Assembly (NCBI GenBank): GCA_903813345.2
Contig: CAIIXF020000004.1
Coordinates: 6,903,525-6,967,524, forward strand
From: Owenia fusiformis
Taxonomy: Eukaryota; Annelida; Polychaeta; Sabellida; Oweniidae
Reading direction: 5' to 3'
Length of the DNA: 64,000 nt
Positions within the stretch are counted from its first letter, which is position 1. Every line of letters starts with the position of its first letter. This document shows positions 4,101 to 50,418 of this stretch, piece by piece. The notes under the pieces are model-generated. The model was given only the letters and a program-made list of their open reading frames with translations. It was not told where the DNA came from and made no database searches. A program made the position numbers and the translations under genes.

Positions 4101-7100
4101 GAAAAATGTTTGCTGTATCATTGGGCAATTAAAAAATTCATTTCTTCAGTACAGGTACACTGTATACGAATATTTGCGTGTACTCGTATGTATATGAGTG
4201 AGATTTTTATGATCATTTGAACAACTTTCTTTATACATAGTACAGCTAGATAGGGCACCCCAATTACGTTTTACTGGAGTGCATTGGGACCCTACAACCC
4301 AGAGACTAGCTGCAAAAAGTCATTGCATTCGGCGTACAACTGGAGGAGTAAACCAGTAATCACAATGAGGATTTTGTTAGTCTGTAATAGTGTTAAAATA
4401 TGGTCATTACCTGGGCTTTCAATAAAATTTTATCATTGCATTCGGCGTACAACTGGAGGAGTAAACAAGTAATCACAATGAGGATTTTGTTGGTCTGTAA
4501 TAGTGTTGATATGGTCATTACCTGGGCTTTCAACAAATTTTATCATTGCATTCGGCGTACAACTGGAGGAGTAAACAAGTAATCATAATGAGGATTTTGT
4601 TGGTCTGTAATAGTGTTAAAATATGGTCATTACCTGGGCTTTCAACACATTTTATCATTGCATTCGGCGTACAACTGGAGGAGTAAACAAGTAATCACAA
4701 TGAGGATTTTGTTGGTCAGTAATAGTGTTGATATGGTCATTACCTTGGCTTTCAACAAATCTAATGTCTTCATCTTTGTATCCAAGACTTGAGCACACTC
4801 CGGATTTCACCGGTAGCCGGGAGTTATTACAAATCGTTCCCCATTCTCCATCATGCAGGACCTCCAATATACCAGCAGAATCGTCATTCCCGCCTACTAA
4901 CCTATACTGAGCTAAAAAGGACATCTCTCCATAAATATTGGAACTAGAGACTTTAAATTGGAAAGCACATTAAAGCATGTTAAAATCTTAAAGGAATATG
5001 TCATCAAATAAGACCTTAAGTCCCTTAATTTTTTTAATTTTGTTATATTAACCGTAGGATCTTGACTATGATATAATGAATTAAACTGGCTATTTTAATC
5101 GTTCTATCGTATGTTCCTTCAATTCAATATATTCGAAAAACAAAACCGGAACATCACAAACCAAGGTGTCTCCCACAATACCTACCATTTCCGGTCGGAT
5201 TACAATCAACACCAGCACCATGACGATAGTAACTTTCTCGATTTGTGTCTCCCCAGATACAGCTTTGAATCTCGGCGTCCTGGAATAAGTTGTTTTTGAC
5301 ACTGGTATTAACAGTTCATTTGTTTCTATAATACAGTGCGTATCAAAAACGCAACAATGAATATATCGCGAAACCATAACACTGTTGATGACTGCATCGA
5401 TTTCATTCTATGAACCATGAAGCCATGTTTCTTCTCCTTTATGTCATTTATTCACACGTAAAGCTTAGGTTAGGGATGTTTTAGCCATTGCAAAAACCAG
5501 TGCATTTGGTCAGGTCCCTTTGGAAGAAGGTGTGGCAGGTGTCGATCAAACAGCTGCAGCGTGTTCATACTCATACAAGATTATACATCACACCCCTCCG
5601 AATGACCACCATTTCTTTGCACACATACACTCCCCTCCATAAGTTTGGCAACCAATATTGATGAAGGCGTAACTTGACTTTATTTCCAATACCTCCAAAT
5701 TTTCTCAATTTTTTTCCTCAATTACAATAGGTCAAAAATTGATGATAAATTTGATGAATTTTTGAAAATCGTCATTCCCATGTAATCCAATGGGAAATGG
5801 AGGGTTCGGGGCAAATCAGAAATCAGGATATCTTTTTAGTAAAAGATTCAGCAAAAAAATATTTTTATATAGAAAATTGAATTGTCTAACTTTTATAAAC
5901 ACTAAGTGTTTATTTTATTTGATGAATATTAAAGTTACGGCGCTTCAAAGTCATTTTAGAAAATAATTTTTCGCCTCCTGTGTTATTTCAATGGGAGAGG
6001 TTTTTTGAAAAACAATTTTGACTTTAAAGCCTTATAACTTTGTTGAACCTGAAGAAACATATCATTTTTTGTTAAATAAAGTTAGCAAATTCAATTGTCT
6101 GCCTAACTCGTATTTTTTGCAAGGACTCGGATGGATGGATTTTCTGTCATATGACTTGCGGCAAACCTACCATTTCCAATTGGTTAACATGGGAATGTCG
6201 ATTTTTAAAAATTCATCAAATTTATCATCGATTTTCGACTAAATGTAATTGAGGAAAAAAATTGATAAACTTTGGAGGTATTGGAATTAGAGAAATTACG
6301 TTTCCATTAATAGTATAAGTATTTTCATCGCAGGTTAAGTAAATAAAAATTCAAAGGTAAAGAGGCTTTAACACGTAGTTCGATGGGGGAAAAAAGGTTG
6401 CCAAACTTATGGAGGGGAGTGTATGAGATGGACTCATTTATCCATGTCATGCATGACTCTCAGTCATCTGTAGGATCGAGCAGTCAACCAAGACTCGGTC
6501 CGGTGGTTCAAATAAATGACATATCATTGGAAAGAGGAAAAACTTTACTTTGTGGTACATTGGTTTTGTGATTTTACAATTTGTTTATTTGTGCGTTTTT
6601 GATACGCAATTCATATCGCTAGACTTTTGTTGGTTCTGCGAATCATGATCAGAATTCAAAATGTTCATCTGGGAAATGATCGCGGCACACTCCTTTAATT
6701 AATGGACCGATGGTTATGAAGTGAAGTGAGTGTCGATTCTACATTGAGTTTAACTCAAAGGAACTTATCCGTAAACCTCTCCCCTCTTCTCTTTTCATGA
6801 AAATTGTATAATTATATATAAATCTCACATTTGCATCACACATTCGTGTTCCTGCAGTAGCCCAGAATAGTAAACTTTCACTCTTCCCGAAGTAGCCGGT
6901 GCTGTAGCCATATGGCGCCTCTGTGACGGAATTGCCAAGTTGTCTGCAGACTATCTTCGCCATATCCTCATTGAACAAGTAGTCCAAGAGTGGCAACCAT
7001 ATACCTTGTTTTAACACCAGCAAGTTTCCCCGTTCCTGAGTGTCACCTCCAACGAGCTTAACTAAAAGCACACATTCATTTATTATTTTGGCACTACATT

Positions 7101-10100
7101 AACTTTAGGAGCCTCTTTAATTGACGTTGATGAATCCTTTTAAATCGCTAAACATTAGTAGAGTTTTACGTGTACCAGAATTAGACTTTCGGTAGACAAA
7201 TGAAGTGTACTTACATAGTGAGTTCTCTTTTTAATTTCTCATTTTTAATGTCCGTTTTTCAAAAAATTGCAACATATTTCTTATATTAATTGCTCGTTAA
7301 CCACTGATTCGTCGGTGAAGCGTGAAATATATGAATATACCATAAAAATGAATAAAATAAAAATATAAAATAAAATGAAAATAAATAACAAATACAGTTA
7401 GATTTTATTTGTATGAATAATATTTAATTTCATTAGCCTACATATGTACTGAATTAATAAGCCAAAAATATTACATAATTTTCGATAATTTCGATACGTA
7501 TACAAATATAGGCTAAAATATTCATGCATTAACGTCTTGTAACGATTGAATAAATCATTACGAATTTTAAGCAAATTATATTCTTATCAGAAGTTCGTAA
7601 CATTTTACGTCACATTTCTTAAAAATAACAAAATGATAAAACATTGAAAACATTTCGCTCAACTCGAAGAATGTTTGTTTATAGTTTAATTCGATTAATA
7701 AGTTCTAAGATGTTAACATTATGCTCCTTTGCAACTAATACCCCACAAAAATTATTATATTTATCTCACAACTCTACATTATCATAATAGTCACAATAGC
7801 CATAACTCTATATAGCTATATTTGATGCCACACAGTACCTGTGTCCTCTTGTTTGACCTCTCCACATGTTATCACTATTCTTTCACTGCATTTTTCAAGT
7901 TCTTCATTGACTGTCGGATTGCATTCATCTAATGTATCCTCGTCACCTAAAGATATAACGTACACAGTATTGCAATAAGTCTTTAACGTTAGGTTTTTTA
8001 TAAATAAAGTCCACTAAATTATGAACGTATTCTTTGGAGAAGTCGCTACGGGGAATGACATTATCTCGATTGGATACAGAGCTAAGATAAGGGATATTTG
8101 AGATGCTATACGGTGAAGTTAGGACTTCCACAAGTAGAAAAAAGGACTTTTGAAATGTGAAAATAAACTCCATCTTGTTAACAAACCATTAACGCATATA
8201 GAAACAAGACATTAACAAGCAAAGTGTCACCATCTGCCATTTATTACAGACAGCAACCGCTGTTACAGACGCCGAACACCAACCAAAGAACACCATCAAC
8301 AAAAGGTGGAGACGATAACAATAACATAAAAACATAAAAATATTTACGTTCCCAAACATTTCAGGGATCAATGTCACGATCAGAACCAAAATACCATTTG
8401 AAGATTTTACCTTGACACCCAGCCGACAGAGTCACCTGGCGGAGAACATCGAATTCCTGCATGAAATACTCTATATCGAGTCCAGAAGAGCGTAGTATTG
8501 GGAAGACATCGCTGGTCGACGCGGCTGCTGTCCCACTGAATCCAAGCTCTTTGCAAACGACACTAGCGTCTTCTTGGGTGAATTCGTCGTCACCAGTCCT
8601 AGCACAAACGCCGTTCCACTTGCCGCCACGGTATATTTCTAGCTGGCCATAGTTAGGGTTACCATAGACAAGACGCGATTTGACTAAAATATGGAAAAGT
8701 TTGAACTGTTTATATATCAACATTGGTGTGTTGATAATAAACTTCATCTGTCCGGAAAGGCAGACCGATGATCATTTATGCACAGAATTATTTTGGATGC
8801 CCATGCTTCGATGTACAAGAATATTAAAAACAGAAAATAAATATGTCCTTCCTTTCGCCATCAAGTAGTGAAGGGAATGAATTATATGTTCGTTGATCAT
8901 AAATGTGCATGCATAATATGATATTTTAAAATTATAATTGCGAAAAGCTTGAAACAAGAGCGTATTATTTCCTTATTTTTAGAAAAAAAGTGTTAACGGT
9001 TTTAGGCGACATCTTTACAGAGCATTAAAAGTATAATTCATATTGGAACTTCTAATTCGCTCACTGGTTGGCTCATCTGGCATGCAAGTCACTCCGGCAT
9101 CTTCAACGTGTTTACACGGTTCAGTTTTCTCCTCTTCACATTCTTCAAAGCTGTTCTCTGTTCCTTTACACTTCAGACTTCTGATATGAATCGGCCCACT
9201 GCCTTCCCCGAAGTAAGCATTCTTATGTACAATTGGATCTCTACAAAGGATTGCAACGCATTCTCATGTACAGTTGGATCTCTACAATGGATTGCAACGC
9301 ATTCTTATGTACAGTTGGAACTCTACAAAGGATTGCAACGCAATTTTTATGTACAATTGGATCTCTACAAAGGATTGCAACGCAATTCTCATGTACAGTT
9401 GGATCTCTAAGGATTGCAACGCATTCTTATGTACCGGCTTTACTTAAAAGTGGTCCGATAGAAAACTTCTATTGCCAAACTTTTGAGTGATGGTGTAAAA
9501 AGTACTCAATTAAAGACTTGAGAAGTATCGAAACGTTTCATATCTTAATTTGTCAACAAAATACTGAACATTATATACGAATACAATGAGGACTTGCCTA
9601 GATATTCCAAGGCCGAGTTCTCTGCAGACAACTATGGCGTCTCTTAGGTCCCAGTGATCGTCACAAATAGTTCCCCAGACGCCATCGACTTGTATTTCAA
9701 CACGACCTTCATTTTCAGTGGTGCCCCCTACCAGCCTTATATTCTCTAGACAATACAAAGAAAAGATTTGTTACTAATTCATTCTGTGATCAACCATTGT
9801 GTTTATGTTATCCTGTCACCAAATAAACTCTAAGTATAAAATACAGTGAATCAATTCATTTAGAACACAACTAATTAAACAATTTACAATAGTGGATACG
9901 TAATTTCAAAGATTTAAGCCCTAGACTCAGTGTAGTGCGCTCAGTGCGCTGAATCATTCCTTTTGAAGGTATTATTTTTAGATCTTTACATGAGCGCGCA
10001 GCAGGAATGCAAAGTTTAGGAAACAATGCCTGGGTGGAATGAATCATCCACAATGCATCAAGTCTTGGGCTTAAATTCTTTTCACTCATTGCAAAATACT

Positions 10101-13100
10101 TTCTCCGAAATTACCTAAAAGATGCGAAATCACTAAAAATAACATATTTTCAATGAAACTTTTTGCGAGGGTCAAGGTCGCAAAGCATCAATTTTAATCC
10201 AACTGTCACCTTGACAACCACATTAGGAGTGACCTTGGATGCTGTGATTGCTGGTATAATGCCATGCAGTTATATGAACTAATGTGTTATGATTGGCTGG
10301 AATCGGACACACCTTGCCTAGCTCTGTGTAACTGTATCGTAAGCTACGGACTGGCCTATGCAATACATCTGAGGAACTTGGGTGAATTATTATGTAAACC
10401 CATTTATTTCCTTCGTATTCATCTTCTCAATGCTAATACAGCGCTAATGATTCAAGGAGAATACAATAGCATGTCAAGGATACTAATCTTAGATAGAAAT
10501 GGAATATCTTTAAACCATTTTATGACGTTTTAATGTTGTAAATCATTGTTAAAAATTATTTATTCTCTCATCTACAATCAAATTGCAACATTATCCGAGT
10601 TCGACGATGATTAATTCTGAGAAAAGTGATAGCTGATTTAATTTCCTATTTCCGCAATAATGTCCTTTTGTCTAGCCGCTGGTACATTATCCAGAGATTA
10701 TCATGACGTTCGGGATATTGAGATTACTAAGATCATCCCGAGCCAAATATGAAACACCCGTCCAAGAGCAATGGCTGGAGAATTCAATTGTAGATAAGAT
10801 GAACTCGTGGGCAAATATAATATATTGTCCAAAGGGATAGTTCCAACATCCTGAAACGATTAAATGATGATCCGTCTATTATACACTCTTTAATGTTCTC
10901 AATAAAAGAGATTAAAAAGACGTATACCTATATAATAGTACCCTGCGTGCAGAGTCTAGTTTTAAACTAAGACGAAGCAAAGTGTACCGAATGATCTAAA
11001 TTACACTAATTTTACAGATTTTTAAACGAAGGCGCAAAACACTTTACAATAACTTCACGATAACTTTAATTCAACATATAAATTATATTTTTCTACATCA
11101 AGGTATGATGAAAATGACACGCAATTAACATCCCGTGAGTATCAACGATATGTTGATCAATTAATTAATCAACTTTTCTAAGAAAAGAAAAATATCTCGA
11201 GAACAATATATTGGGAATTTATCAAGGAACTTTTAATAAAAGCAACATTTCAAAATGGAATAATGAAGTGAACATCGATCTCAATAATCATGAAGGGCAT
11301 ATCATAATTAAATACCATGAACAAAGTGAGTTATTTTGAGCCAAAGCTTGTATACTTTAAATATAAATAGCTCCTCACAGATTTTTGCCTCCAAATAAAT
11401 ATCTACATACGCTCGTATATGTGTGGTCTCGAAGAATCTGCCTTTTGCCGTTTTTTCGAAAACCACTTTGAAACTCTTGGGCACTTATTTTATCATTGTG
11501 AATTGGCAAACAAATTACGAAGTGATATTAAGAAATGGTTGCCAGAGGGACTTTCTATTTTCAGTCATACGAGAACTTTATATAATATTTGGGTCAAGTA
11601 ATCATGGACGAAAATTCTATCCTATTAAACACAATTTTCTGTATATATAAAAGATATATATTATCAATGCAAATGTAAAAAATGTACGACCAAATTTTGT
11701 AGGTTTTAAAAGTAATGTAAAACTTACAATACTTTAAGTTAGATGTAAAGTTAGAGAAAGGGGAAAAGTGGGACGAGATCAAACACTTATTATAACATCT
11801 CTTATAACACACTCCAAATAATCTACATGCGCATAAAATGTAGAAATTATCAAGTCAATAATATGATGTATTTCGGATAGTGCTCTTAGCAGAAATAATC
11901 TGCAACTTATTGAATTTTGTTTAATTGCACTGTGTATCTATTGTAATTGAAAAACTGCTAACTTGAAATAAAAACTTATTAAAAAGATAATTAATCAAGG
12001 TTTTTTTCAAGACTGATCGAGACGAGAAAAAGTTTTTATGACCTACGATATTTTTTGTTTGAACAATAGAGATGATGAGGATCACAAAGAGTTCATTGCA
12101 ATTTTATTCTTTAAGTTTATCTTAGCGATTTGCAATTAACTTTACGTTCCGTGTATTGTCAGTCTTATTGTTAAACCTATTGATTACTCATCAATATATG
12201 ACCGATCAATCTCATTATATCATACCAGAGGCAAACAATATGTTTCTGATTATACAATGTCAACTCCATCTAGTCAACACGCATGCGATAAATCTTAAAA
12301 TATTTCCTCGGGAATTTATCTGTTGTACTAGTTTACAAAGTGTGATTATATAATTTCATAATGTAGGTATATAATGTATTATCTGCTCGTATGCTATAAA
12401 TATTTAATATTTGCCAAGGATATAAATTTGTTGTACTTTAAAACGTCTAATTTGTATTAAACGATTTTAAATATAGTCGACCAGTATACTATGACACTAT
12501 GTATACAGGTCGGCCAAAATGAAATCGGTGAAAAGACGCGACAGATATATTTGAATATTAAATATTTACTAATTTAATTGAACTAACTAATTTAAATATG
12601 AATAGATCCTGCCGTGTATCCTGATTCAATAATTCCGTAATTGACTGATTAATTTTGGAAAATTGATAGGTTAATCCGGTTGCCGACTGCCGAAGAATAC
12701 AAGCAAAGTCCTCTCAGAACCTTTACCTCTTCGTTTGAAGAGCACTATATGAATCAATGAAGGATTTTATCTTGTTTAATTGATCCTTTGTGCCTGGTGA
12801 GAACAAACGCATTTAGTAAATTAGAAATATAACTACAAAAAGTTTCACTTTCGGTAAAACCTGACTACCAATGTCAGTAGAATATGATTAGCCATATCAT
12901 GTAGTTACATGTTTCGAAGTCAAAAGTATGTATAATACGACTATAAATTATGTCTACAGAGATAATATATAATTTATGTAATCATGCACATTAAAAGATA
13001 TGGATACACTTCATCTACGTGAAATTTAATGGATTTAATATGACGTGTTTTGGGCACTTGAAATTTACAGGGTGGGCCAAAAAACAATACTCAAGTTTAA

Positions 13101-14783
13101 AGATGAATGATTCATTTGTTAAATGTTAAACCATGCCATGCATTATGTATAATTTTGAAGATAAATCATTTTTTAACAAAAACAAGGGGTTTTCACTTGG
13201 ATGGTGTCATTTTGTTCAAAAATGATTTATCTTCAAAATTATACATAATACATGGCATGGTTTAACATTTAACATATGAATCATTTGTCTTTAAACTTGG
13301 GTATTGTTTTTTGGCCCACCCTGTAGATTTCCCATGGTGGCGTTCCTCTCAGACAGACAACCTACTCATGGTTTTCACCCAGACATGATATAGTTGAACA
13401 AATAGTTATGAACCACGATGGAGGATACACGATAAGGATATTATAGATGAAGCTAGGACATCTACCTGGCATCACGGGAAATTATTTTAAATTTCTATCT
13501 AGATCAAAGGTCAAAAACCAGGTCAATCTTATATTTATTTTACATTGTAGAGTTAATCGCATGCAATAATGATAATCAAATTGATATCTAATTGCCCTAT
13601 GCATGCTGGCGATTTGATGCTAATACTATCACATCTATCCTCACAAATCTTCACATTTTGGCCGGTCGTTGCAAATGACAGTATTTTGATTAAATATACG
13701 TGTATAATACATTTTAAGATAGCAGAATTAACACTTGAAACAAAAATCAATGGACAAAACGAATTTTGACATTTATAGAATCATTTGAAGTTTCTTATAT
13801 CACGGTCAATAGATTAAATACGTCGGGAAGAACAATATAGGTCTGAGGTCCTGAAATGTTATACAAGCATATAGGGGAAGGGGAAGAAATACATCTGTCG
13901 GATTTTATTGTAAAATGATAAAACCTCTTCTTTTGAGAAGCTTGTACGACCCTAATAATTAAATCAAGTCAGAAGGAGACTAATTTTTGTAAAATGATAA
14001 TCATGATAAAATACCTCATGCAAAAAGTCATAAAACTGTGATAATCCTTCCAACAGGTTGTCACTATTTATTTTCATTCTAATGCCATTTTCCATACATC
14101 GACTACACTTACTAAATGAAGTACAAAGTGTAAAGTGCGATTATAACACAATTGACATGCCAAATATTGTTTTTTTAATTTATAAGGTTAGAGTCAATGC
14201 GATCATTGCCGATCGATCGGGTTTTTATCAATTGTTGTTTTCTTTTCACAAAATTAAAATCGAGTATCTATTCCAGGTAACCTAATACCAAAAAGTAAAT
14301 TATCCGAAAATTAACTTACTATAATAATCAAATAGGGCGTTGAAAATGTGTCATATTCATTTCCATATATCCATATTTCACAGTTTTGATCAAAACAATA
14401 TTATGTGCTTTCATGTTTTAATATTAGTTTTCCAAATTTACGTTCACATCAAGTTCGATGGCGAATATCACATACGAAGTTACAGATACTTTTTAGAAAA
14501 AAAATTTCGAAAATAAAAAGTAGACATCAATAAAGAGACGGAACAATAAAGAATTTGAAAGCATGTTTATTAATGCATTGATTTAAAATATGAAACTATG
14601 TTCAAAAAGGCTCTAATAATCTTTGAAGAACGACTGATATGTAAGCACGGGTCAATTGCACAATTTCAAGGATACCACGAAGGCCTATTTTTAAAAAATG
14701 TGTTCAACTATGATCCACTTACCTACTGACCTCACAGTTGTCAGGAAAACACTTCCGAAAATCGCAATTAATAATTTCCTCAT
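1141..14783 (-). CDS. Secreted protein with four SRCR domains and a Cys-rich, basic C-terminal tail
   Basis: Ten coding exons (5' to 3'): 14783-14723, 9745-9598, 9240-9065, 8683-8411, 7946-7839, 7061-6829, 5279-5186, 4911-4744, 3599-3438 and 1418-1141. They join in frame to 566 aa. The first exon encodes a hydrophobic signal peptide ([17 protein letters not shown]). Each SRCR domain is split over two exons and begins after a phase-1 intron. Approximate domain positions are 24-122, 130-248, 257-362 and 366-470. Domain hallmarks are visible, such as [28 protein letters not shown] and EDAGVTC in domain 1. Domain 3 is divergent and lacks the first Cys (QGIWLPLLD). Residues 475-566 form a Cys-rich, sushi-like region ending in [12 protein letters not shown] proteins are typically secreted or cell-surface binding proteins, often in innate immunity; ligand unknown. 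The domain-1 internal intron is best read as GC-AG, which restores [13 protein letters not shown] alternative (exon ends 9585 and 9221) is less convincing. The signal exon is about 5 kb upstream but matches in phase. Confidence 0.85.
1808..3246. mobile_element. Foldback (long-TIR) element with G+C-rich arms
   Basis: The arms at about 1808-2110 and 2941-3246 are near-perfect reverse complements of about 300 bp, starting with GGCCTATTAGTATAAAG. Both arms are studded with ACGCCCGT / ACGGGCGT motifs at irregular spacing. The roughly 830-bp middle is A+T-rich, with no recognisable transposase. It lies in the last intron of the SRCR gene (between exons 3599-3438 and 1418-1141). It is interpreted as a non-autonomous DNA transposon. 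Confidence 0.75.
3733..3786 (-). repeat. tRNA-derived SINE fragment (B-box only)
   Basis: On the minus strand the sequence GGTTGTGAGTTCGATTCCC contains a good RNA polymerase III B box (TTCGATTCC). No convincing A box or tRNA fold surrounds it. This fits the head of a tRNA-derived SINE better than a tRNA gene. Confidence 0.35.
3839..4012. mobile_element. Small TIR element (MITE), family copy 1
   Basis: Begins CCGGTGTGAAAG and ends CTTTTACACC, imperfect inverted termini. The interior (GGCCCTTACTGGCCCT, AGGTCACCATATAAATCAAT) recurs at about 50291-50418, and the termini recur at 59250-59324, so this is a dispersed family. Confidence 0.6.
4322..4760. repeat. Tandem array of about 112 bp carrying copies of a 5' splice site
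   Basis: Four copies start at about 4322, 4435, 4545 and 4657 (ATTGCATTCGGCGTACAACT). On the minus strand each unit holds the last 15-20 bases of the SRCR-4 exon 4911-4744 followed by its donor. The genuine donor abuts 4744; copies lie next to 4634, 4522 and 4411. All extra copies are on the intron side. Confidence 0.8.
5627..6422. mobile_element. TIR element in an SRCR-gene intron
   Basis: Termini are ACACTCCCCTCCATAAGTTT and its reverse complement ending at 6422. Inverted similarity continues inward (TTTGATGAATTTTTGAAAAT against its complement near 6210). It has no transposase. Diverged relatives occur at about 15840-16230 and 34450-35125, which share the AATGGGAGAGGTTT block. Confidence 0.7.
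9217..9434. repeat. 41-bp tandem array carrying copies of a 3' splice site
   Basis: Copies start at 9217, 9258, 9299, 9340, 9382 and 9421 (plus-strand consensus GCATTCTTATGTACAATTGG then ATCTCTACAAAGGATTGCAAC). On the minus strand each unit contains TTTGTAG|AGATCC and ATAAG|AATGC, that is, the acceptor and first bases of SRCR-1 exon 9240-9065. The array extends into the intron. Confidence 0.8.
9592..9598 (-). other. Probable GC 5' splice site (GC-AG intron) in the SRCR gene
   Basis: Read on the minus strand, the exon ends ...TCTAG and the intron starts GCAAGT, a perfect GC-donor consensus. Paired with the acceptor CCTTTGTAG at about 9241, it gives an uninterrupted SRCR domain with VHKNAYFG, close to the spacing seen in scavenger-receptor SRCR domains. 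The nearest GT alternatives (att|gtattc at 9584) are poor donors. Confidence 0.5.
10680..11601 (+). pseudogene. Decayed LINE retrotransposon fragment (reverse-transcriptase C-terminal end)
   Basis: Several frames recall the end of a LINE ORF2: a stretch with [14 protein letters not shown] near 10750, [10 protein letters not shown] near 11380, then the open piece 11419-11601 with [10 protein letters not shown]. This resembles the zinc-binding knuckle (ETxxHLFxxC) after the RT domain of LINEs. Frameshifts and stops separate these pieces, so it is a dead copy. It sits in the first (5 kb) intron of the SRCR gene, opposite in strand to the host. Confidence 0.5.
12590..12720. repeat. Dispersed repeat fragment (relative of 26374-26712)
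   Basis: Shares ATTTAAATATGAATAG, GGTTAATCCGGTTGCCGAC and AATACAAGC with the element at 26374-26712, in a degenerate form. Confidence 0.4.
13067..13324. mobile_element. Palindromic MITE, mariner-like TIR (ACAGGGTGGGCCAAAAAA)
   Basis: A 258-bp hairpin. The two arms of about 110 bp are near-perfect reverse complements around a short loop. The termini match the first 18-20 bases of the 1.1 kb element at 45781-46901, so the two belong to one family and this is an internally deleted copy. Confidence 0.8.
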
Positions 14784-15839
14784 CCTCTGAGTAGAAATGC
14801 CTTTGAACGATCCTGCAGAAATACCAGAGAGCTGCACGCCTTTCTATTTCTATATCGATATTGAGTTATGATGATTTATCAATCGCTCATAAATAGTTAA
14901 CCAGTGCAGGGTATATTATAGCCGATATCATCAAGAAATTTGCATATATTGCACATTCATACAAACTGCTACCGCAAAAACCCAAGTTCTTGAAACTGCG
15001 ATGGCAATTTTCATCCAGTTTTTCAATTTATATAGTACTGATGCAATAGATGTTGACATTATCGAGCTTGCTAAGGCCTTTGATCATCATTGGGTCATAA
15101 TGACGTTCCACAGGGAACAACGCATCAATCTGATGTCTTCATTACAATAGAGCTTCAACTGATAAATTGCAAACAATTGTGCAATTGATACCTTCATTTG
15201 TCGTTTATGATTCACTTATTTGATGTAGCGTTTATAGATTTTGCTCGTATGTATCTTTAATCTCTGTAATACAAAGTGAATACATGTATCTAAACGTCAT
15301 TTGTCATTCAGATATCGCGTTTTCTTCTTTCACCTGAATTTAATTTAACTTTCTATCTTGCATTTTCAAATGTTGGATGCATCGTTGGTTCTGTTCGTGG
15401 CCTTTTTAATTTATTCAACTTTTAACAGGACTTATACCTTTCGCACATCGATCGATCATCTCAAATTTCCAAAGAATCTTATCGCTAATATTATAAATAT
15501 TCGAGAAAAAATTTAACTACACTACCTACAAAATGCATGTATAGTTAATTTATTTTAAGTTTACTTTAACATCGGGTAATTTCTTCAAAACTGAACGAGA
15601 ACAGGTGGGTTTGGCCGCAACCTGTTGTTCTTCTTCTTACCTCGCATTGTGATATATTATATTTCTATCTTTGTTTTTACCTATATTGAATCGTATAATC
15701 CCGATCCGCTAGAAACGGATTTATTTTTATCTCCTTGATATTTTCCCGAATGATATATGGATACTCCGTTGTAATGAGTTATTGATATACTTTTGGTCTT
15801 GGGGTAAAGGGTCAAACCATAAGAGGACACAATTCGAGA

Positions 15840-16230
15840 TGTTCCCAAAATAATAATTATGTGTCAATGTATGCAATGTATCCATCTATCCAATTTGCAA
15901 ACTTTGTTTAATAAAAAAACTATACGTTCTACACGTTCAACAAAGTTACAGGTCTCCAAAGTCAGAATTATTTTTCAAGAAACCTCTCCCACTGAAATAA
16001 GACAAGAGACAAAAAATGATTTTCAAAATTGACTTTGAAGATCTGTAATTTTAATGTTCACTAAGTAAACTTAACACTTAACACTTAACATAATTTTCTG
16101 TATAAACGTATTTTTGATGAAGCATTTACTGAATAGATATCCAGAAATCTGATTAGCCCCAAACCAACCATTGGTTAACATGGTAATGAAATTTTTCGAA
16201 AATTCATCAAAGGATGAGTATCGATATGGT
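15840..16230. repeat. Degenerate copy of the 5627-6422 element
   Basis: Contains the reverse complement of the AATGGGAGAGGTTT block and flanking sequence (AAACCTCTCCCACTGAAATA), plus the CAAAATTGACTTTGAAG segment seen in 5940-6030. The termini are not recognisable. Confidence 0.5.
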
Positions 16231-16351
16231 GAACTGAATTTCACAATTTATTTCACTTAAACCAACCATTAAAAACATTCTGTAAAAACACGGTCCTTTA
16301 TGCAATGTTGACTCATTGACAACAATTTAATGCGAAAATTATTCACAGTAT

Positions 16352-17351
16352 ACAGGGTGTCCGGAAAGTAAAGATACAAATGCTCTAACTTCAATAGATT
16401 TACCTGTTGTGAGATATAATTGCTACAGATTGTAAAATGACATTTCAACAATATATCATGTAACTGTCATGACATATAGATTCAAAATGAAAAGGTTATG
16501 GTCGTTATGGTAACGGGAGTTGGGGGTATGTGGAGCAGCGTCACAATTCATTTTTATTGTCTTTTATAAATCTTTTTCCTATTCCTATCATCTTGGCACT
16601 TAACTCATTTGTTCCTATAAAACATCAAATTATGTCCCACAACAGCATGAAGATTAGTACTCTGTTATTTTATCATTTAACATGACTACTATTATCCAGT
16701 ATTATGTTTTCCCCACATTATCTATATGTTCATGGTGCATCTTGACCAGAGATTCAAAGACCGGACAAAACCGCTGCTGTTTGTCTTCAGATTGCTGATA
16801 ACATTCGCTACTAGTTGAGTCTCATTTGAATACTGAAATTCTAACAGATTAAATATCGCTTTGAGATGCTCATTAAGGTAAAAGTCTAAAGGGGCCTTTT
16901 CAGGTAAATATGGGACATTGTAAAAAAGGTTTAGTGTCAAGACACTCCATTTTGAGATTTGTTGGCTTTGCTTTGTGAACTGGTGCATTTTTGTGGAGGT
17001 GGAATATTGACTTTCCTTATTAACCCAGGGAACTTATATTTTAAGCACTTCTATAATATTTCTTTGATTACACTGATGACATATAACATAGTTCTGACAT
17101 GTATCAATGACACCATTATACATAAGAGAACAAAATAGCAACAATAATATAATATTCAAGAAAACAAAACACTGGTAGAAAACACAATGATGAAGACTGT
17201 ATCAAATGGTTATATTTCAGCAATTAATCAGATTTTAGCTATGATCTGGTACTGTAATAATGTTCCTCTACAATCTGTAGCAATTTCATTGCAAAACTCC
17301 TAAATCTCTTAAAATTAGAGTATTTGTATCTTTACTTTTCGGACACCCTGT
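16352..17351 (-). mobile_element. 1.0 kb mariner-like element with a transposase remnant
   Basis: Perfect inverted termini ACAGGGTGTCCGGAAAGTAA at 16352 and their complement ending at 17351, flanked by TA. Inside, the minus-strand stretch 16988-16722 reads PEKAPLDFYLNEHLKAIF. This resembles the SPDLxPxDFFLWGxLK block near the C-terminal end of mariner-like DDE transposases. The remaining catalytic regions are missing, so the element is non-autonomous. Confidence 0.7.
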
Positions 17352-17428
17352 ATATTTTATATAACTGTTTTTATTAACATTTTTTGTTTTTTGAGTGCAA
17401 TTGTTTATAAGGGGGGGGGTATTTGAGA

Positions 17429-17706
17429 TATGCCTGGGTCACATATGCTCCGATTCATCGACCGGGGCCCGGCCGATTGAGTGTTTTGTTCAATATTGTA
17501 TTCAATTTTGAACAAAATACTCAATCGGCCGGACGCCGTAGTGAAAATCGGGGAAAATGTGACCAAGGCAATACGGAACAACCTCTGTAATGCCTGGGTC
17601 ACATTTCCCCAGATTCGGCCGGCGCCCGGCTGCTTGAGTATTTGTTTAAAACTGAACACAATTTTGAACCGCCGCCCGATAAATCGGAGCAAATGTGACC
17701 CATGGT
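17429..17706. mobile_element. Two tandem short G+C-rich TIR elements
   Basis: Each unit starts TGCCTGGGTCACAT and ends ATGTGACC(A/C): 17429-17572 and 17589-17706. Interiors are rich in GGCCGG / CGGCGCCCGG palindromic motifs. The 1.6 kb element at 40974-42603 has the same ends. Confidence 0.65.
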
Positions 17707-18695
17707 TCATCTGAAAAGTGTTCCACTATCAAGGCGTTGTTCCGCTTCAAAGGGTTAGATAAACATCAAATCATTAGACCATGAAACAGTCAAAAGTGTT
17801 TCACTAACAACCTAGTTCTACTTGAGCGGTTTTACCGCCTTCATCATTTATTTTGTTGTATCAAACACTTTTTTCCTCAATGAATGCCACGTTATAAAAA
17901 CCTAGAAAATAACAAGAAAATAAATAATTCCTTCTTCATCGGGTAATGTACAAGATAAACGTAAACTGCAATTTGATGTTCGTTTGTATTGTATTGTATT
18001 TTGTTTACCACCAATGAAGGTAAGCAATACCTCTTGGGTATATCCCGTATATATACGGTCGTAATTTACGTAATTAACCTGGACGATAGACCAAGAAACC
18101 CCTCCCTGGAGGAGCCCTGTGTCCTTTTATGTGCACTTAAACAGAGACATACAAATACACACCACTAGTCTACACAGCTTTTTGTACGAGTTGCGGACCA
18201 CTCAGATATATGCAATATCACGTGTTGCATAAAATGTCAAAGAGGTTCCCTGTTAGATACAAATACACTCTACTATTCCTTGCATTTGGTGTTCATGAGC
18301 AACCCATTTGGCTTATTAGTAATGGTAATGTTATTTGCTTTTATATGTCTGCTGCTTATGAATGGTTTATTGGATGACTGTTAGATATTAATAAGGTACT
18401 TTCAAAATGATACTATACAATACAATTAGACAAAGAGAATATCTTTTCTAGGTGTTAGGTATAGTAGAGTGAAATATTAACGTTGTCAAACACTTCTGTC
18501 GCGATTCAACGAATATTCGAACATGACTGTGTTCACGCCTTCTATAAACTGTAAACTGTAAGTCAACATTTCACCCGGGGTATATTCGCGAAGAATAACC
18601 CTGGTAATACGTGCAATGTGTGACTTCATAACGGCGGGTCGTAGTAATGGCAAACCCGAAACATTTTGGTGAGTTTTCATGTTCGAATCGTAATA

Positions 18696-18863
18696 TAGAC
18701 CTCAGACTGAGCAGAGGTAATATCGTTGAATACACCCCTTAGGGCTAGGAACAAAAGCTTTCGATCCCCTCACTCCCTTCGGTCGTCCGGGGTACAGAAA
18801 ACGCTTGTGGCTACCCCTGCGGGGTGTATTCGACAATATTACCCCTGCTCTTCGGTCTATATT
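18696..18863. repeat. Foldback repeat of about 170 bp
   Basis: TAGACC...GAGCAGAGGTAATATCG and GAATACACCCC on the left pair with GGGGTGTATTCGACAATATT and CTGCTC...GGTCTATA on the right. No coding content. Confidence 0.6.
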
Positions 18864-19479
18864 TCTTAATCAATACAATCGAACGTTCTGCACCTTTTCA
18901 TGTGTGATTATTGAACTGTGAAGAAATTGTCTGGATGTCAGATTTTTTGTCATGTTACAGTAATTACAACAATCTGTTCTCGTTTGAGTGGCATGTGTAC
19001 AGTCACGCTTTAACAACTTGTCCTTCAGTCAGTCACGCAATGTCAGAGAAAGCTTCGCATCATGTCATATTACATGTCATAACTGCTGTCAGTGATGATC
19101 ATGAATTCAAAAAGTCTGGATAGCCTTTTGATTCCAAAGAAACGTTATTACCTTATAAGTAAAATAGCCGCATCGGCAAATATTACTCCCTGATTTGTAA
19201 TATAGTCAATTAGCGGCAATACAGCAGTAAGGAAATACCCATTAATAAACATGCGCGCTTTAAATAAAAGCTTCTACCATTGTTGTATTTATGTATTATT
19301 TTCAATTTTTATTTTTTTCAATAATAAGACATCACATTTTTCAAAATATGGCTCTGCGACAGCGTGCTAAGTCTGTCCTTTAATTTATATTACATGTGTA
19401 CATGTTTTTATAATGATCGCTGGCTGCGTCGCCGCTTGGATCTATACTGAAATTAGACATCAAAAAAATTATAAAAATT

Positions 19480-19630
19480 ATTTGTTGAAAACACATGAGC
19501 GTGTAATTTGCACGGTAGCATTTGCACTACAAGGCTTATTGTTCTTTATAGTGATACCTAGGGAGGACACTCATTAAAATATTATGCAATTCACTTACAC
19601 CGCGGTCATACAAAAATACAGCCTATAATA
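19480..19630. repeat. Dispersed repeat, copy A
   Basis: TTGTTGAAAACACATGAGCG through CAAAAATACAGCC is about 80 percent similar by eye to 51490-51625, including TTATTGTTCTTTATAGTGAT. Function unknown. Confidence 0.5.
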
Positions 19631-20224
19631 AGATAGAATATGTAAGATTACCATATTGGTATGGGTGAGATCTTTTTAAAGAAAAAATTAGTTTTGAATG
19701 CTGCTTCAAGACAGAAAAATAAATGAATATTCAGTGTAGGTAACCTATACGCATCATTTAGCAATTAATGTATAACGGTTTAAGAATAAGTATTATTGAG
19801 AAAATAGTTGGTCGTGAAAATATCTAATGACATACGAATGATAATTTATGATACGTGTAAATACGAGTATATCACTATGCCCTTATTCTAGCGAATAAAA
19901 CAAGGTTATTTACACAGTAAAGGTAAACATTAAACACCTACTTTTAGAACACGTATTTGCCGACGATATAAATGTAAAGCTATGATTGTATTATATTAAA
20001 AAGATCTATGGTATAACATATTGCAAACGAGCGATATATTTTAAAAATGTATGATATATACATCAAGTGTTTGTGATATATTTACATATTAGGTCTAAAC
20101 GATGTGTAATGGTAACAATAAATTTATTTAAATATACTTGACGACTCATTGAAATGCTTAATAAATGTATGATATAGACCGGGATTATTGATGTTTTTGT
20201 ATCTTTATTTTCTCCCAAATGAAC

Positions 20225-21279
20225 ATACGAGGGTATATCATAAAGTTCTCATAATATCTCTCTAATTTTTTTATTTTTCAATATATTCTAATGAAATTTT
20301 CAGGAAATCTGCAGTATAGAACACTGTATTAATCTATCAAAAAATATTTGATATAACAGAAAAATTAAATAAGTAATGGTTGCCATAGTAACCGGAAATC
20401 AAGGCACCCGGGGCAAATAAAAATAATTGAGAAAATGAGCTTAATTAACCATGTTTACATACATATAAGAAACTCTCATAAATTATCAAACACATTAAAA
20501 TGTTATGTTAAATATGTTAAATGCTTTTACTATAAAATAAATTGATCATGTGAATTATGTGATGTCTTAGGGGATGCTTACATGCTTCATTAGATGTGAT
20601 ACCAGACTCTGGGAATCAAAGCTTAATGATCATGATGATAATGATAATGATCAGAAATGACAGAGTAAGATAATGCATAGATGCAGAGATCATCAGAAAA
20701 ATAAAATTCATACTAACAAAAAGTTTGGTTAAGTTCGAAAAGTCCTTTGATCATACTAAAGATGATCTAAAACAAATATGTTGCAAAGTTATCAACAAAA
20801 TTACCCCCCTATTTGTGGTCTAAACATATTTAAGATAAACTAAAGGGGGAAAATCGACTTTCCTTGGAATATTTGACAAAACAGTTGTAGTGCCTAACAA
20901 CACTTCTAATGATGCATTACAATCATCCATTATGAGATCACACAATTCACATGGCCATTATAATTGTTCAAAAGCAGCGGTCAAGAATACATGGCATTTA
21001 AAAATTTGATGTGTTTCATAGCTTATTTGATAACTTATTATGCATTTAAACATGGTTAGTTGGGGCTATTCTTGCACAATTTTTTATTTGCCCCGGGTGC
21101 CTTGATTTCGGGTTACTATGGCAACCATTTCTTAAATGATATTTCTGTTGTACCAAATATTTTTTGATAGATTAATACAGCATTCTATACTACACATTCT
21201 GTGAAAAATTCATCAGAATATATTGAAAAATAAAAAAATTAGAGAGATATTATGAGAACTTTATGATATACCCTCGTAT
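20225..21279. mobile_element. 1.05 kb element with TIRs of about 220 bp (ATACGAGGGTATATCA)
   Basis: Arms 20225-20440 and 21070-21279 are reverse complements (ATACGAGGGTATATCATAAA at the tips, GGCACCCGGGGCAAATAAAA inside). No transposase is readable. The tip resembles that of 32104-33207 (TACGAGGGGTGATCC), suggesting a shared superfamily. Confidence 0.75.
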
Positions 21280-22892
21280 GCCCCACACTTAACTATTTTG
21301 TTGATAAGTGTTGAAGATGCTCTTCAACTGGTCTTATGACGGACTCATCATTTCCTCATATAATTATCAATACGTGCCATTTGTGACTGGTCATTGGATA
21401 TTTTTAAGTCAACAATCCGTATACATTGTACGTCCTCTAGTCTTAGAAGGTTGGCCCTGTTCGGTTTAATGTTTAACTACTTCTGATTTAACTGTACGTT
21501 AAAATACAACATTGATTTAAATGTATGCCTTTAAACATGTACAATTCTTTAACTTGTAAACATTCAGTATTTTGTCAAACACAGTCTATCGTTTATAAAG
21601 GATACAGGTTACCGGGAGTATTGCTGTAAACAAGTGCATCATATATATTCATACATACGCAAGATCCGTTAGGGGGTTACAAAAGGTAGTCATATAGTGA
21701 ATTCTGTTTGGATGCGACTGACGTAGAATCGACCTTAACAGGCAGTGATATGTAAGTAACTATTACCATTTATAATAATTATTACATTTTAAGCCACCAA
21801 GAAAAAATACATATTTTAGTTTACTGTAGTAGTTTACTGTTATAATTTTTATTTTTCAGGTAGTGACAAACTGTCAGTGCCTCGTTCATAGTCTAGCAAA
21901 TGCATATATTTGATAAAATAGGCAAGCAAAATGGCCACTGGGGGGGCAAACATTACGAAGGGAACTTAATAAGAAATGGGGTATATTGAAAAGTACGACA
22001 ATGGGCAACATGAAAATAATCTCAAACTAAACATGAAACATATAAGTATGCCACAAACTCAGAGTTAGCATGAATAATATCTAGATTATCTAATAGTACA
22101 CATGTGATTTAACATTTTCAAGGCCATGGTAATTTATTAACACAGTAATATTTTATATCAGATAACGTACTAAGATGCACTAACGATTATGTATGTCCAA
22201 TTTGAATGCCGATTTAATAATGAGCATTGCCTGTATACACATATCCCCATTCTGATACTCTGACCATCTCTGCAATATGACATATCCCCGTCACGAATCC
22301 GTAGTGACCAGAATATACACGGTGTCCATAAAGTCTCTAAAATGACAAAATAAAGTTTGTGTAAGATGTAAAAAATACTTCATGGGCGCCGTGTACAATG
22401 AGACACAGACCATTCGTTCACCCTCCAGTGAAAAATAATATTTTAAACCTAAACTACTTGGTACTTACTACTGAAGTTTGGAGAAGATTCCAATATAACT
22501 AAAAAAATAATCTTGAAAACAAAGAGGTGTCTTCTTGTGCATTGTGTATTTATCAAATGATGCACTCAACTATGATGGCAAACCATATGTTATATGCATC
22601 GATTTATAATTTAGGCGTCAGAGTTCGGCATATGTAACAAAATGTTACACTCCCGGGGTTACACTTCTCCAATAACTTACCAAGTCTGTATACTCTAGTT
22701 TTCAAATATGCAATTGGTTTTTGATAATACTGAATATTAAAAGAGTTATTATAGAAAAAGTGACCCTTGAATAATTCTGTCTGGGCTACTATTTATTATA
22801 TGGCTAAACTAGCAAAAGAAAAATACATATTCGGCAAATCACAAGAGAATTGATGGTAATCAATATGAAAATGTATTCTTTTTAAATTACAG

Positions 22893-25745
22893 GACACTAT
22901 AGTCAGCTTACTGGCTGTCTCAATACGTTTGCCCCACGGTGTACATTAATCAACGATGTCAGAGGTGTCAAGGAGGATGTCAGGTCGGGAAGAGGTCACC
23001 ACAACGGTGGTCATCCTGCCCCTGGACAGATCACAAAATGCTCAACATGCTTTTCAATGTAAATAAGCACCTTAAGAGAAGTATTATGTTGTTGGCTTAA
23101 GATTATTTACACATTAAGATAATATAATATATTGGTTTCCTAGATTACCATATAATGTCTACTAATTGATCATTTGTGCTTGTGTTTATAAATAACATGT
23201 AACCATGGTGATCATTATGACATATCTCTTTTCTTTGTAATTATTTCTAGAGTTCATTGTGAAAAGTAAGTGCATGTTTACATGCTATTTCAACGTATTT
23301 TTCAAATTAATGTTTTTGGATGAAATAAAATAGCTATGAATTGGAAGTCATGCTTTGTCTTAAAGAAAACGGGAAATGTCGAAAATGCACGGTTGACTAC
23401 AACAAGGATATGTTTTAGGATATTATTTATATGAGATATCATGATTTGTTTTTTATAATATAATGAACCGTTGTTCCCTTGTTTTGAGTAATAAAGGTGT
23501 GATATGCACTTGAAAGAAACATTGAGTTTTCTCAGATAGAAGTGTCGGACCTTTGTTGATTTTTGAAAGAAATTAGTATCAGAAGGGGCAATTACTTGAT
23601 AATTATGTCTGAGCCATCACTTTATTGAAATAAAGTTAAACAATGGTCGGTAAGATATGCCCAAAAGTTTTTCTCACTTTTCAAGAGTTGTTTATAACTA
23701 TTTAATATTCATCACTTAATATCTTAAAAGTATCAACATCAGGTTTATATTTACTATGACAGCTTGACTTTTGAATTTTGACGAAAGGAATACTATAACG
23801 CATGGGCACGTCCTGGTTGTATCGAATTATACATACATTGTACTTAAAGAGGACGAAGAACTAGAATACTATACTGTATCCTGAATTAATTAATTAAAAT
23901 GACACACAGATAAAAACAACAATAAATTATATTTCAGGGTACGTTGACACAATCTACAGACAAGACCACTTGGTACATTTAGTTCATATTCACGAACCTC
24001 CGATTCTCAAATCGAACATTATGAAAGGAAATGGCTCTCTCCTTGACTGCTATATAGATAAAGACTACCCTGCTGCTGCTAAGCCTAGTGCAACACCACG
24101 CCTCATGGGTGAGGCTTCACTGAGCTGTTTTATGACTCCAGATTTTAACCCAAGCCAGGAGAAAGTTATAACCCAACACCAACGAGGTAAAAAGGTTGCA
24201 TAGTTTATCATATATCTTTAAATTAAATCATGTCATTTAATTAGCTATGAGAAAGTTATAACCCAACACCAACGAGGTAAAAAGGTTGCATAGTTTATCA
24301 TATATCTTTAAATTAAATCATGTCATTTAATTAGCTATGAGAAAGTTATAACCCAACACCAACGAGGTAAAAAGGTTGCATAGTTTATCATATATCTTTA
24401 AATTAAATCATGTCATTTAATTAGCTATAAGAAAGTTATAACCCAGCACCAACGAGGTAAAAAGGTCGCATAGTTTATCATATATCTTTAAGTTAAATCA
24501 TGTCATTTGATTAGGTAGGAGAAAGTTATAACTCAACACCAACGAGGTAGCATAGTTTATATATCTAAGTTAAATCATGTCCTTTGATTGGCTGGTGCTA
24601 CTGGATATTTCGGTTCATCAACATTCCCTGGATCCCGTTGGCCGGTATCTACTTCTACCATTACCTCTTTACCTTCTACCCCTTCGACTCTCAGGCAGAT
24701 ATATTATATTTGCCTCGGGATAAACCGAATAACCATAATATATCTAAGTTAATTACGTCCTTTGATTGGCTGGAGCTACTGGATATTTCGGTTCATCAAC
24801 ATTTCCTAGATTCCATTGGCCGCTATCTACTTCTACCATTACCTCTTTACCTTCTACCCCTTTGGCCCTCAGGCAGATATATTATATTTGCCTCGGGATA
24901 AACCGAATAACCATAATATATCTAAGTTAATCACGCCCTTTGATTGGCTAGAGCTACTGGATATTTCGGTTCATCAACATTTCCTAGATCCCATTGGCCG
25001 CTATCTACTTCTATACCATTACCCCTTTACCTTCTACCCCTTTGACCCCAAGGCAGGTATATTATATTTGCCTCGGGATAAACCGAATAACCAGATCCTC
25101 ATATAGGATAATCTGTTTATTCCTAATATCATCACATTTATTCATCCAGATATGCAGAGACTCGTCGATGAGGAAGAGAAAAGGGTCCAGCAGCTTTTCA
25201 AAACATTCACACAACAATTGCACAAACGAAATGTAAGCCAAATTTTTCAAATCTGTTTTATTTCATATACTTAAACTATTGTTTATTTTCGCACATGTAT
25301 GACTGTTATATGCTTAATTTAAATATATAAATTGTAAGCTATTGAATTGTCGGGGTACATTCAGATATGACATGGTAGTTGGGTTAGGTCAATTTTTTGC
25401 ATCATTTCCATGTATGTTCATAATATCACCAAAACGAGATTCTCCGAAAGTTTCTTTGTCTATGCTATGAATATTCAAATTGAAATGAAATACTAATATG
25501 AACAATAATATAAGTACATTAGCTACATGTTTTTTTTTCAGATAAAGTGTTCTGTCCATGATAAGGTTAGCACCCAACCAGGACAGACAATATGTGACTT
25601 TGTTACGTCATTAAACGCTGACGTTGTGGTCATGGGGTCAAGAGGTCAAGGAAAAGCTAGACGAACAATTCTAGGCTCAGTATCGGATTATGTGTTGCAC
25701 CATGCTAACATCCCTGTGCTCGTGATCCCTATGTCAAAACAGTAA
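22893..25745 (+). CDS. Universal stress protein (UspA family), 212 aa
   Basis: Coding exons: 22956-23058, 23938-24186, 25150-25232 and 25542-25745. The first exon probably starts at 22893 after ATTACAG, implying an upstream untranslated exon. The joins restore HAFQWYVDTIYRQDH and the last exon gives a full UspA C-terminus. The ATP-binding motif G-2x-G-9x-G-S is present (G177, G180, G190, S191: GSRGQGKARRTILGSVSDYV). The first strand LPLDRSQNAQHAF is the usual DxSxxAxxAF start, with Arg-Ser-Gln in the loop. A roughly 40-residue insert between the HIHEPP strand and the helix MQRLVDEEEKRVQQL makes the protein longer than the typical 140-160 aa. USP proteins bind ATP and are linked to stress responses in bacteria, plants and some invertebrates; the role here is not shown. 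Intron 2 consists largely of two tandem arrays. Confidence 0.88.
24159..24560. repeat. 90-bp tandem array carrying copies of a 5' splice site
   Basis: Five copies start at 24159, 24249, 24339, 24429 and 24519 (GAGAAAGTTATAACCCAACA). The first 28 bases of each unit are the 3' end of USP exon 2 and the rest is the start of intron 2. Donors (CGAG|GTA) therefore recur after 24186, 24276, 24366, 24456 and 24546. Copies 2-3 are essentially identical to copy 1 and the last is shortened. Reading past the first donor meets TAG after four codons. Confidence 0.9.
24561..25100. repeat. Tandem array of about 179 bp, three copies, in USP intron 2
   Basis: Units begin ATATCTAAGTTAA at 24561, 24740 and 24918 and run through CTTTGATTGGCTGG and GCCTCGGGATAAACCGAATA. 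The start of the unit matches the end of the preceding 90-bp unit, so the second array appears to have grown from the edge of the first. Confidence 0.85.
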
Positions 25746-28700: not shown

Positions 28701-28881
28701 AGGAAACTACATGTGATATACATTAAATTACTCAATCGTATGTGCTGCTGCATAAACAACAAAGGGCAACACAAACCTGTATGACCAGAACGTATGTAAA
28801 TCTGCAATATATTCAACGAATTTCAGATGTAATATATACATGTACATAATTCATACAACAAAATAAAATAAAGGTATATAG
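25746..28881. other. Intergenic region after the USP gene
   Basis: No coding exon is supported. It holds the repeat at 26374-26712 and an isolated tRNA-like B box near 26170. The rest is A+T-rich. A poly(A) signal for the USP gene is not obvious within 300 bp of the stop; AATAAA occurs only at about 27017. Confidence 0.4.
26374..26712. repeat. Foldback repeat with internal duplication
   Basis: GTGGCAGGTACTATTCATAT with ATTTAAATGAGTTGCC occurs twice in direct orientation (about 26375 and 26631), and the complement of the same block lies between (CATCTCATTTAAATATGAAT at about 26610). GGTTAATCCGGTAGCCGACA and its complement repeat likewise. A nested or partly duplicated TIR element is the simplest reading. 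Confidence 0.55.
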
Positions 28882-29598
28882 AAAGGAGGAGGGAAATTAG
28901 CGCAACAGATTTTGGACAGTCATATGTTGGATTTTGGCCATTTTCTGAGGATTTAAACAGGTGCATATGTTATGGGAATGCATTACCTCCGGGAAAATCA
29001 CTTCAAGAGATGATAAAATAATTTCAACTTTGAGACAGGGTAGATGCAAACAACCCACCCACATGCTTTTTCTGAAATGTTTTCCTAATTTTCGACTCCT
29101 TCCATCCCTGCTTTTTTAATTTTTCTTGCATCAATATGTTGCATTTTGACACATAACTAACCACTTTAAAGGAATAAGTGATTCCTTCAGGGGTTTTAAA
29201 GATATCCATTATGGGTGACCAAACTTAGCTGAAAGCAATAATTTTTCCTATGGGAAAATAACATGGGAAATATTGTTTTCCACTTTATCTAAAAGGAATC
29301 ATTTATTCCTTTTAAGGGATTAACTGTGTGTCAAAACGCAACAAATTGATGCAAGAAAAATTAAAAAAGCAGGGATGGAAGGGGTTGAAAATTAGGAAAA
29401 CATTTCAGAAAAAACGTGTGGGTGGGTTGTTTGCATCTACCCTGTCTCAAAGTCAAAATTATTTTATCATCTCTCAAAGTGATTTTCCCGGAGGTAATGC
29501 ATTCCCATAACATGTGCACCTGTTTAAATCCCCAGGAAATGGCCAAAATCAAACATATGACTGTCCAAAATCTGTTGCGCTAACTTCCCTCCTCCTTT
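28882..29598. mobile_element. Foldback element immediately upstream of the GH31 gene
   Basis: Arms of about 330 bp (28882-29210 and 29290-29598) are near-perfect reverse complements, with tips AAAGGAGGAGGGAA and its complement. No transposase. The right tip is about 120 bp before the GH31 start codon, so the element probably forms part of the proximal promoter or 5' UTR region. Confidence 0.75.
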
Positions 29599-29716
29599 AA
29601 AGAATTGACTAAATACTGTAAGAAATACAAATATACGGACCATAGCTGTACTATTCTATGATAGTGCTATTAGTTTAGCATCCGGAATACACCTGTTTTG
29701 ACATTTATCCACAACG

Positions 29717-50105
<20,389 letters not shown>

Positions 50106-50290: not shown

Positions 50291-50418
50291 GTTCCTTATG
50301 GCCCTTACTGGCCCTGACTGTGTATTAACAATAAGGAAAATAATTGTAATTAGGTCACCATATAAATCAATAGAGAGTAGGACATAAATTTGATAGGACC
50401 ACCTACCTTTTACACCGG
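50291..50418. mobile_element. Small MITE, family copy 2
   Basis: GGCCCTTACTGGCCCTGACT through ACCTTTTACACCGG matches the interior and right end of 3839-4012. The left end is eroded. Confidence 0.5.

Follow-up and report, generated by a model that had tools for sequence, protein, structure and literature searches.

Tandem arrays whose repeat unit runs across an exon–intron boundary have been described in amphioxus under the name "mirages". These minisatellite-like tandem duplications were reported from Adh3 (Canestro et al. 2002, as cited in PMC3087553), from the globin genes BflGb6 and BflGb9 (PMC3087553), and from PGBD5 and troponin C (PMC3902484). According to these reports, they occur at 5' or 3' boundaries, with units of 10 to about 160 bp, and it is the terminal site of the array that is genuine; many of the copies, not all, keep the AG or GT, normal splicing is reportedly undisturbed, and the number of copies reportedly differs between haplotypes (PMC3087553, PMC3902484). 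The mechanism was called unclear by the authors, who suggested a role in intron gain (PMC3087553). The sequence-only reading followed up here had known of no established name for the pattern, a statement that is superseded by these reports.

Several other systems share part of this architecture. In human segmental duplications, variable internal tandem repeats are found at exon–intron boundaries, and 27 intron modifications were kept after inspection (PMC2812944). Like the arrays considered here, these are minisatellites at exon–intron boundaries that alter gene structure, but they are described for recently duplicated genes only, with an average unit of 30 bp, and concern variable repeats and new introns; in the passages of PMC2812944 on these repeats, no test for an excess at junctions was found. 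Intron gain by tandem genomic duplication (Rogers 1989, reviewed in PMC3443670) likewise creates surplus splice signals; in that model, both new splice sites are provided by the duplicate of an exonic AGGT segment. Tandem exon duplication with mutually exclusive exons (PMC9013439, PMC6071210) shares the tandem exon copies, each copy being complete and usable there. Intronic minisatellites are mentioned for earthworm metallothionein genes (PMC12783039). Our literature search revealed no study in which the number of junction-straddling arrays is compared with a null, which is no proof that none exists. The minisatellite of the human interferon-induced gene 6-16 reportedly supplies multiple splice donors (Turri et al. 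1995); these stand in series as they do here, but at a single locus and with a short unit.

The window, i.e. the whole stretch of DNA that was analysed, covers 64,000 nucleotides of the annelid Owenia fusiformis (C4:6903525-6967524), and the genome searched comprised 498 Mb in 525 contigs and contained three matches to the annelid haemoglobin linker family. Five tandem arrays adjoining splice junctions had been claimed for this stretch, and TRF found all five at the claimed places. The junctions of arrays 1 to 5 were placed solely from the sequence, with the reading frame and the splice consensus as guides. Together with a further array from the same intron as array 3, the features, with copy numbers as assembled, are:

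4320..4760, minus strand: array 1, 110/112-bp unit in four copies across an SRCR exon donor (TRF, sequence, Pfam SRCR)
9217..9434, minus strand: array 2, 41-bp unit in 5.3 copies across an SRCR exon acceptor (TRF, sequence, Pfam SRCR, profile 49-99)
24159..24549, plus strand: array 3, 90-bp unit in 4.3 copies across a universal stress protein (USP) exon donor (TRF, sequence)
24559..25093, plus strand: 178-bp array, 178-bp unit in three copies in the same intron as array 3, no exon straddled (TRF)
42932..44527, plus strand: array 4, 146-bp unit in 11 copies across a GH31 exon donor (TRF, sequence, Pfam GH31, copy alignment)
48026..50032, plus strand: array 5, 19-bp minisatellite in 104 copies in the GH31 intron 47735-50036 (TRF, sequence)

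Sequence reading and Pfam bear out the claim that the unit spans the exon–intron boundary in the first four arrays, and that three of these copy a donor (SRCR, USP, GH31) and one an acceptor (SRCR). The structure recurs in unrelated genes and shares several traits with the amphioxus mirages. The unit carries exonic sequence in arrays 1 to 4 (about 17 of 112 bp, 24 of 41 bp, 28 of 90 bp and 122 of 146 bp, respectively), both boundary types are represented, with donors in arrays 1, 3 and 4 and an acceptor in array 2, and the GT is kept in 3/3, 4/4 and 9/10 of the surplus donors of arrays 1, 3 and 4. Work on the amphioxus cases, as far as their reports describe it, dealt with single genes of cephalochordates and included RT-PCR and haplotype data, whereas the present case is a genome-sequence analysis of an annelid with a count against a null. 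As a list, the five arrays are real but selective: the 178-bp array in the USP intron was missed and the arrays at 56-59 kb were left out (28/50, 58, 40/120, 119 and 32 bp at 56041-59209), and TRF also reports 22-bp and 13-bp arrays. This selectivity made a test outside the window necessary. A search of the window against Rfam gave no match at gathering score.

In array 1, the exon extends from 4744 to about 4912 (minus strand) and the first base of the donor is 4743. Surplus donors follow at 4633, 4521 and 4410 (minus strand), and each of these three copies scores 5.35, compared to 5.07 for the genuine donor. Among the genome matches listed in a DNA search, the own locus of array 1 is the only place at which it occurs. 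In array 2, the first exon base is 9240 (minus strand) and belongs to the copy that adjoins the exon body. Acceptor-like AGs are present in the copies, and the AG at the far end of the array is ruled out as genuine acceptor by the reading frame, as judged by eye. The SRCR exon upstream of array 2 (~9595-9605, minus strand) has an apparent GC-type donor, AG/GCAAGT, as read from frame and sequence only. Elsewhere in the genome, SRCR matches recur about every 400 bp, some with internal stops, at C7:35817010-35819162, C7:35835372-35836349, C7:37461208-37462478 and C287:7637-9640. Copies of an 82-bp dispersed repeat, 84% identical, lie at 3922-4003 and 50330-50411, each some 300 bp away from an array (arrays 1 and 5, respectively).

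The first intron base at the array 3 donor is 24187 (plus strand), with surplus donors at 24277, 24367, 24457 and 24547 (plus strand). Assignment of the gene stems from a Pfam Usp match in a downstream exon; the straddled exon itself is without Pfam match. Because the reading frame is kept, the acceptor was placed at the end of intron 24187-25149, and this intron is almost wholly tandem DNA, consisting of array 3 followed by the 178-bp array. The 43 matches to the USP arrays listed elsewhere in the genome (40 of 739 candidates scored) all fall in one 48-68-bp piece of the 178-bp unit. This piece (24700-24760) matches at least 40 other places at 84-94% identity over 48-68 bp, in the manner of a dispersed repeat. 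Among the genome matches listed, there is no other copy of the 90-bp unit of array 3. The notion that the arrays constitute one mobile family is rejected, as no outside copies are listed for array 1 or the 90-bp unit in a genome search that covered array 1 and the USP arrays.

In array 4, the unit takes in 122 of the 149 bp of exon 42905-43053, together with the donor at 43054 and 24 intronic bp, and a degenerate twelfth copy runs on to about 44625. Both the genuine exon and the next exon match GH31 in Pfam. Directly after the degenerate last copy lies an inverted repeat (44626-44938) with arms of ~101 bp that are 91% complementary; 22 inverted-repeat pairs are listed for the window. The surplus donors of array 4 are nearly as strong as the genuine one, as are those of arrays 1 and 3. 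Acceptor scores range from -0.59 to -1.66 in nine copies and the tenth is without AG, compared to 8.1 for the genuine exon. Divergence among the 11 copies, including the genuine one, is 0.087 in the exonic and 0.085 in the intronic part (mean about 0.09). Variants are spread over the codon positions as 17:15:14, with 14 synonymous and 32 non-synonymous changes, and open frames remain in several copies. Examined as a cluster of mutually exclusive exons, array 4 revealed neither a good acceptor in each copy nor coding constraint, which distinguishes it from such clusters; an assignment of the GH31 copies as alternative exons is rejected on account of the weak acceptors and the neutral-like variation. 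Judged from these sequence features, they look like passive donor copies.

Array 5 covers about 87% of its intron and stops 4 bp short of the exon, with an acceptor score of 7.48 at 50037. The observation that it ends at an acceptor was correct, but it is no instance of the pattern and is rejected as a mirage, given that the 19-bp unit holds no exonic sequence and that abutting without straddling is at chance level in the sample described below. A comparable case is found in L038 (1-776), where the intron is occupied by a 34-bp minisatellite that stops no more than 25 bp from the matched exon core.

The test sample outside the window consisted of 166 exon neighbourhoods with a total of 271,384 bases. 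Sample 1 comprised 100 exons of kinases, ABC transporters and helicases, each flanked by 800 bp on either side, and sample 2 comprised 66 exons of kinesins and myosins, each flanked by 600 bp on either side. The exons were found by Pfam models and hand-picked among the best candidates on C1-C12, with no internal stop and an open frame of at most 300 aa. Small contigs, matches over ~450 bp, neighbours of rows already taken and some paralogues were left out, and so were the remaining members of the myosin exon cluster and the remaining copies in the kinesin array, both discussed below. In sample 1, 100 of ~106 exons listed were taken, the last few helicase rows being omitted; the search with profile PF00005 gave 25 matches only. 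It should be noted that 88 bp are shared between L121 and L137, and that the 66-bp events in L108 and L131 are apparently one array that was split (both counted as non-straddling).

A tandem event was defined as an ungapped self-match of 34/40 bases at a distance of 30-400, with a duplicated stretch of at least half that distance. This provided 29 and 24 events in samples 1 and 2, respectively, and event counts are those of the algorithm unless reading is stated. Neighbouring exons were called by a small exon finder, for which the matched exons served both as training set and as scoring set. At threshold, it recovered 161 of the 166 matched exons and called 195 others, with 21 calls on the whole opposite strand; 361 exons were left once array copies had been dropped. 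Introns predicted within these regions are short, with a median length of 300 bp. For the null, a seed with the unit length of the event was placed randomly within the same region. Seed length was chosen since the presence of a junction in the unit is determined by the segment first duplicated and not by the array into which it grew.

Under this null, an exon edge was straddled by 18 of the 53 events compared to 6.18 expected across the 166 neighbourhoods (P = 4e-6), i.e. duplication events hold an exon edge about three times as often as random seeds of the same length. With units of at least 60 bp, 14/20 events straddle compared to 4.5 expected (P = 4e-6), divided into 8/9 vs 2.18 in sample 1 and 6/11 vs 2.32 in sample 2, and with units below 60 bp 4/33 events straddle compared to 1.68 expected (P = 0.08). 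Acceptors account for 10 of the straddlers and donors for 8. The excess persists at 80% and 90% identity, as well as without the low-complexity filter. TRF calls gave a similar picture (14/39 vs 4.95 expected; 13/23 vs 4.3 for periods of at least 60), although sample 1 alone is weak (6/22 vs 3.0, P = 0.06; for periods of at least 60, 6/14 vs 2.68, P = 0.03). When the null was matched for GC, the 14 straddlers with units of at least 60 bp compared to 5.27 expected (P = 2.5e-5), and additional exclusion of exon-internal seeds raised the expectation to 6.55 (P = 4e-4).

Manual reading of the straddlers showed L139 to be false and L094 to be doubtful, while L071 and L080 are real additions; by reading, long-unit straddlers then amount to 13/20 (P = 3.3e-5), or 14 with the doubtful L094. 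In the opposite-strand control, 3/53 events straddle a call, and 9/53 do so at a looser exon threshold. Pfam was used to verify straddled exons (nine neighbours and one array copy), and 7 of these 10 match the expected family. L062, L071 and L080, with lengths of 27-43 residues, gave no Pfam match. By eye and from their motifs, we take the latter three to be DDX-, ATRX- and CHD-like exons, respectively. Independently of the event counts, L037 (620-930) contains a diverged pair of kinase exons, GSK3-like by eye, which cover the same profile range in the manner of a mutually exclusive pair; the pair is below the event threshold.

Events that do not straddle behave differently. Within 30 bp of an exon, 5 of 33 such events were found compared to 4.99 expected, and overall they are slightly farther from exons (mean quantile 0.58, KS P = 0.04). 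In sample 1, coverage with duplicated DNA does not rise towards matched exon edges, amounting to 2.8-2.9% there as opposed to 3-5% up to 450 bp away and 6-8% farther out, and a shift null at array length likewise revealed no enrichment, with 4 matched-edge crossings seen compared to 9.1 expected. When matched edges alone were considered at seed lengths, 8 crossings were obtained compared to 3.5 expected (5 vs 1.57 and 3 vs 1.93), an excess that is similar in size on smaller numbers. The enrichment depends on the seed-length argument, which we consider correct, given that the exon part is present in the copies of those straddling arrays that were read. The sequence-only reading had proposed a recurring process that links tandem duplication to splice junctions, and a scan of repeats by their distance to splice sites; outside the window the association holds for straddling arrays, and it finds no counterpart in coverage, in the array-length null or among the non-straddling repeats.

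In summary, arrays 1 to 4 are probably best described as mirages, i.e. local tandem duplications that are tolerated by exon definition and over-seeded at junctions. Exon definition is an established concept, and it suggests the following sequence of events. A segment with an exon edge would be duplicated in tandem, with one junction staying joined to the rest of the exon. Splicing would then continue as before under exon definition, because only one copy is joined to the exon remainder at normal exon length. The unit would subsequently multiply, presumably by unequal exchange, whereby donors or acceptors end up in series. Duplications wholly inside exons, on the other hand, would be removed by selection. 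The surplus copies look mostly passive, and those of GH31 are neutral-like and without good acceptor. The likeliest reason for the excess would be that exon or junction DNA is prone to duplication and that exon-internal duplications are purged; the over-representation of exon-edge seeds may reflect exon DNA that is more duplication-prone, or arrays of this type that are longer-lived. As a tentative proposal, junctions could be hotspots for tandem duplication of ~60-180-bp segments, via transcription, splicing or exon chromatin, with a few per cent of edges carrying arrays of their own site and the same process behind the lancelet mirages.

An excess of survival instead of origin is rather unlikely, though the largest array met speaks for it. 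Here, a constrained exon would correct its copies by gene conversion and keep the array recognisable. The array in question, from a kinesin gene (L167, C2:23266001-23269400), has a 159-bp unit in which the acceptor is repeated together with most of the exon. The unit is present in 18 copies, a number that we note as a difference from the amphioxus mirages as reported; by reading, surplus copies reach an in-frame stop. Its copies differ by 8 synonymous and 2 non-synonymous variants (P = 3e-4). Two of the 8 synonymous variants are located in the presumed genuine exon, and without them the ratio is 6 to 2 (~0.004, calculated by hand). This synonymous excess is not in line with wholly passive copies, and the variants suggest constraint or conversion from the working exon as possible origins. 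However, the GH31 copies show no such bias, neither between exonic and intronic divergence nor between synonymous and non-synonymous variants, and in arrays inspected by eye, such as that of L062, the intronic parts of straddling units are well preserved too. A myosin heavy chain region carries a tandem exon cluster at C9:37986009-37994334, with about a dozen listed matches (profile ~27-81) several hundred bp apart.

It appears unlikely that junctions are not preferred at all, which would leave many duplications in a genome with short introns, inclusion of an edge by chance, and survival whenever one good site stays. The flat coverage at exon edges, the array-length shift null, the chance distances of non-straddling arrays and the median predicted intron of 300 bp are in agreement with such a scenario. 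Conversely, the excess under the seed-length null was obtained in two separate samples and with several definitions, and chance would give more purely intronic long-unit events than the 6/20 that were seen.

A function of the surplus copies, be it as decoys or timers provided by the splice sites or as alternative exons, is improbable. The near-genuine strength of surplus donors in arrays 1, 3 and 4, the open frames in several GH31 copies and the synonymous excess in the kinesin copies may be interpreted along these lines. Decoy or kinetic splice control, which had been offered as an outcome, and extra exons nevertheless lack support because the GH31 copies vary like neutral DNA, evenly over the codon positions, and have weak acceptors (about -0.6 vs 8.1). 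Moreover, straddling in the sample affects genes of diverse types, and amphioxus mirages reportedly leave splicing undisturbed in the accounts given (PMC3087553, PMC3902484).

Very improbable is a recent gain of the introns in which an exonic AGGT segment was duplicated in tandem. The mechanism is known, as reviewed in PMC3443670, and introns such as that of USP consist largely of tandem copies; however, the units hold old intronic sequence and the partner splice site is outside the array in arrays 2, 3 and 4, on which grounds AGGT-type gain is rejected for these three. Inflation of copy numbers by the assembly is hardly credible, since the copies differ by substitutions and indels (mean ~0.09 in array 4) that mis-assembly of one copy would not produce, even if assemblies are known to be error-prone in tandem arrays.

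Taken as mirages, the arrays belong to a kind already known from amphioxus, and what is unexpected is their excess at junctions. Mirages have so far been described gene by gene in lancelets; a similar edge preference in a distant lineage would, if true, make the phenomenon a general one. In genomes of this type, gene predictors may call surplus exon copies as exons. Should junctions indeed be hotspots, they would be a standing source from which new introns and exons could arise, and if the phenomenon is general, the origin of new splice sites and introns would become testable.
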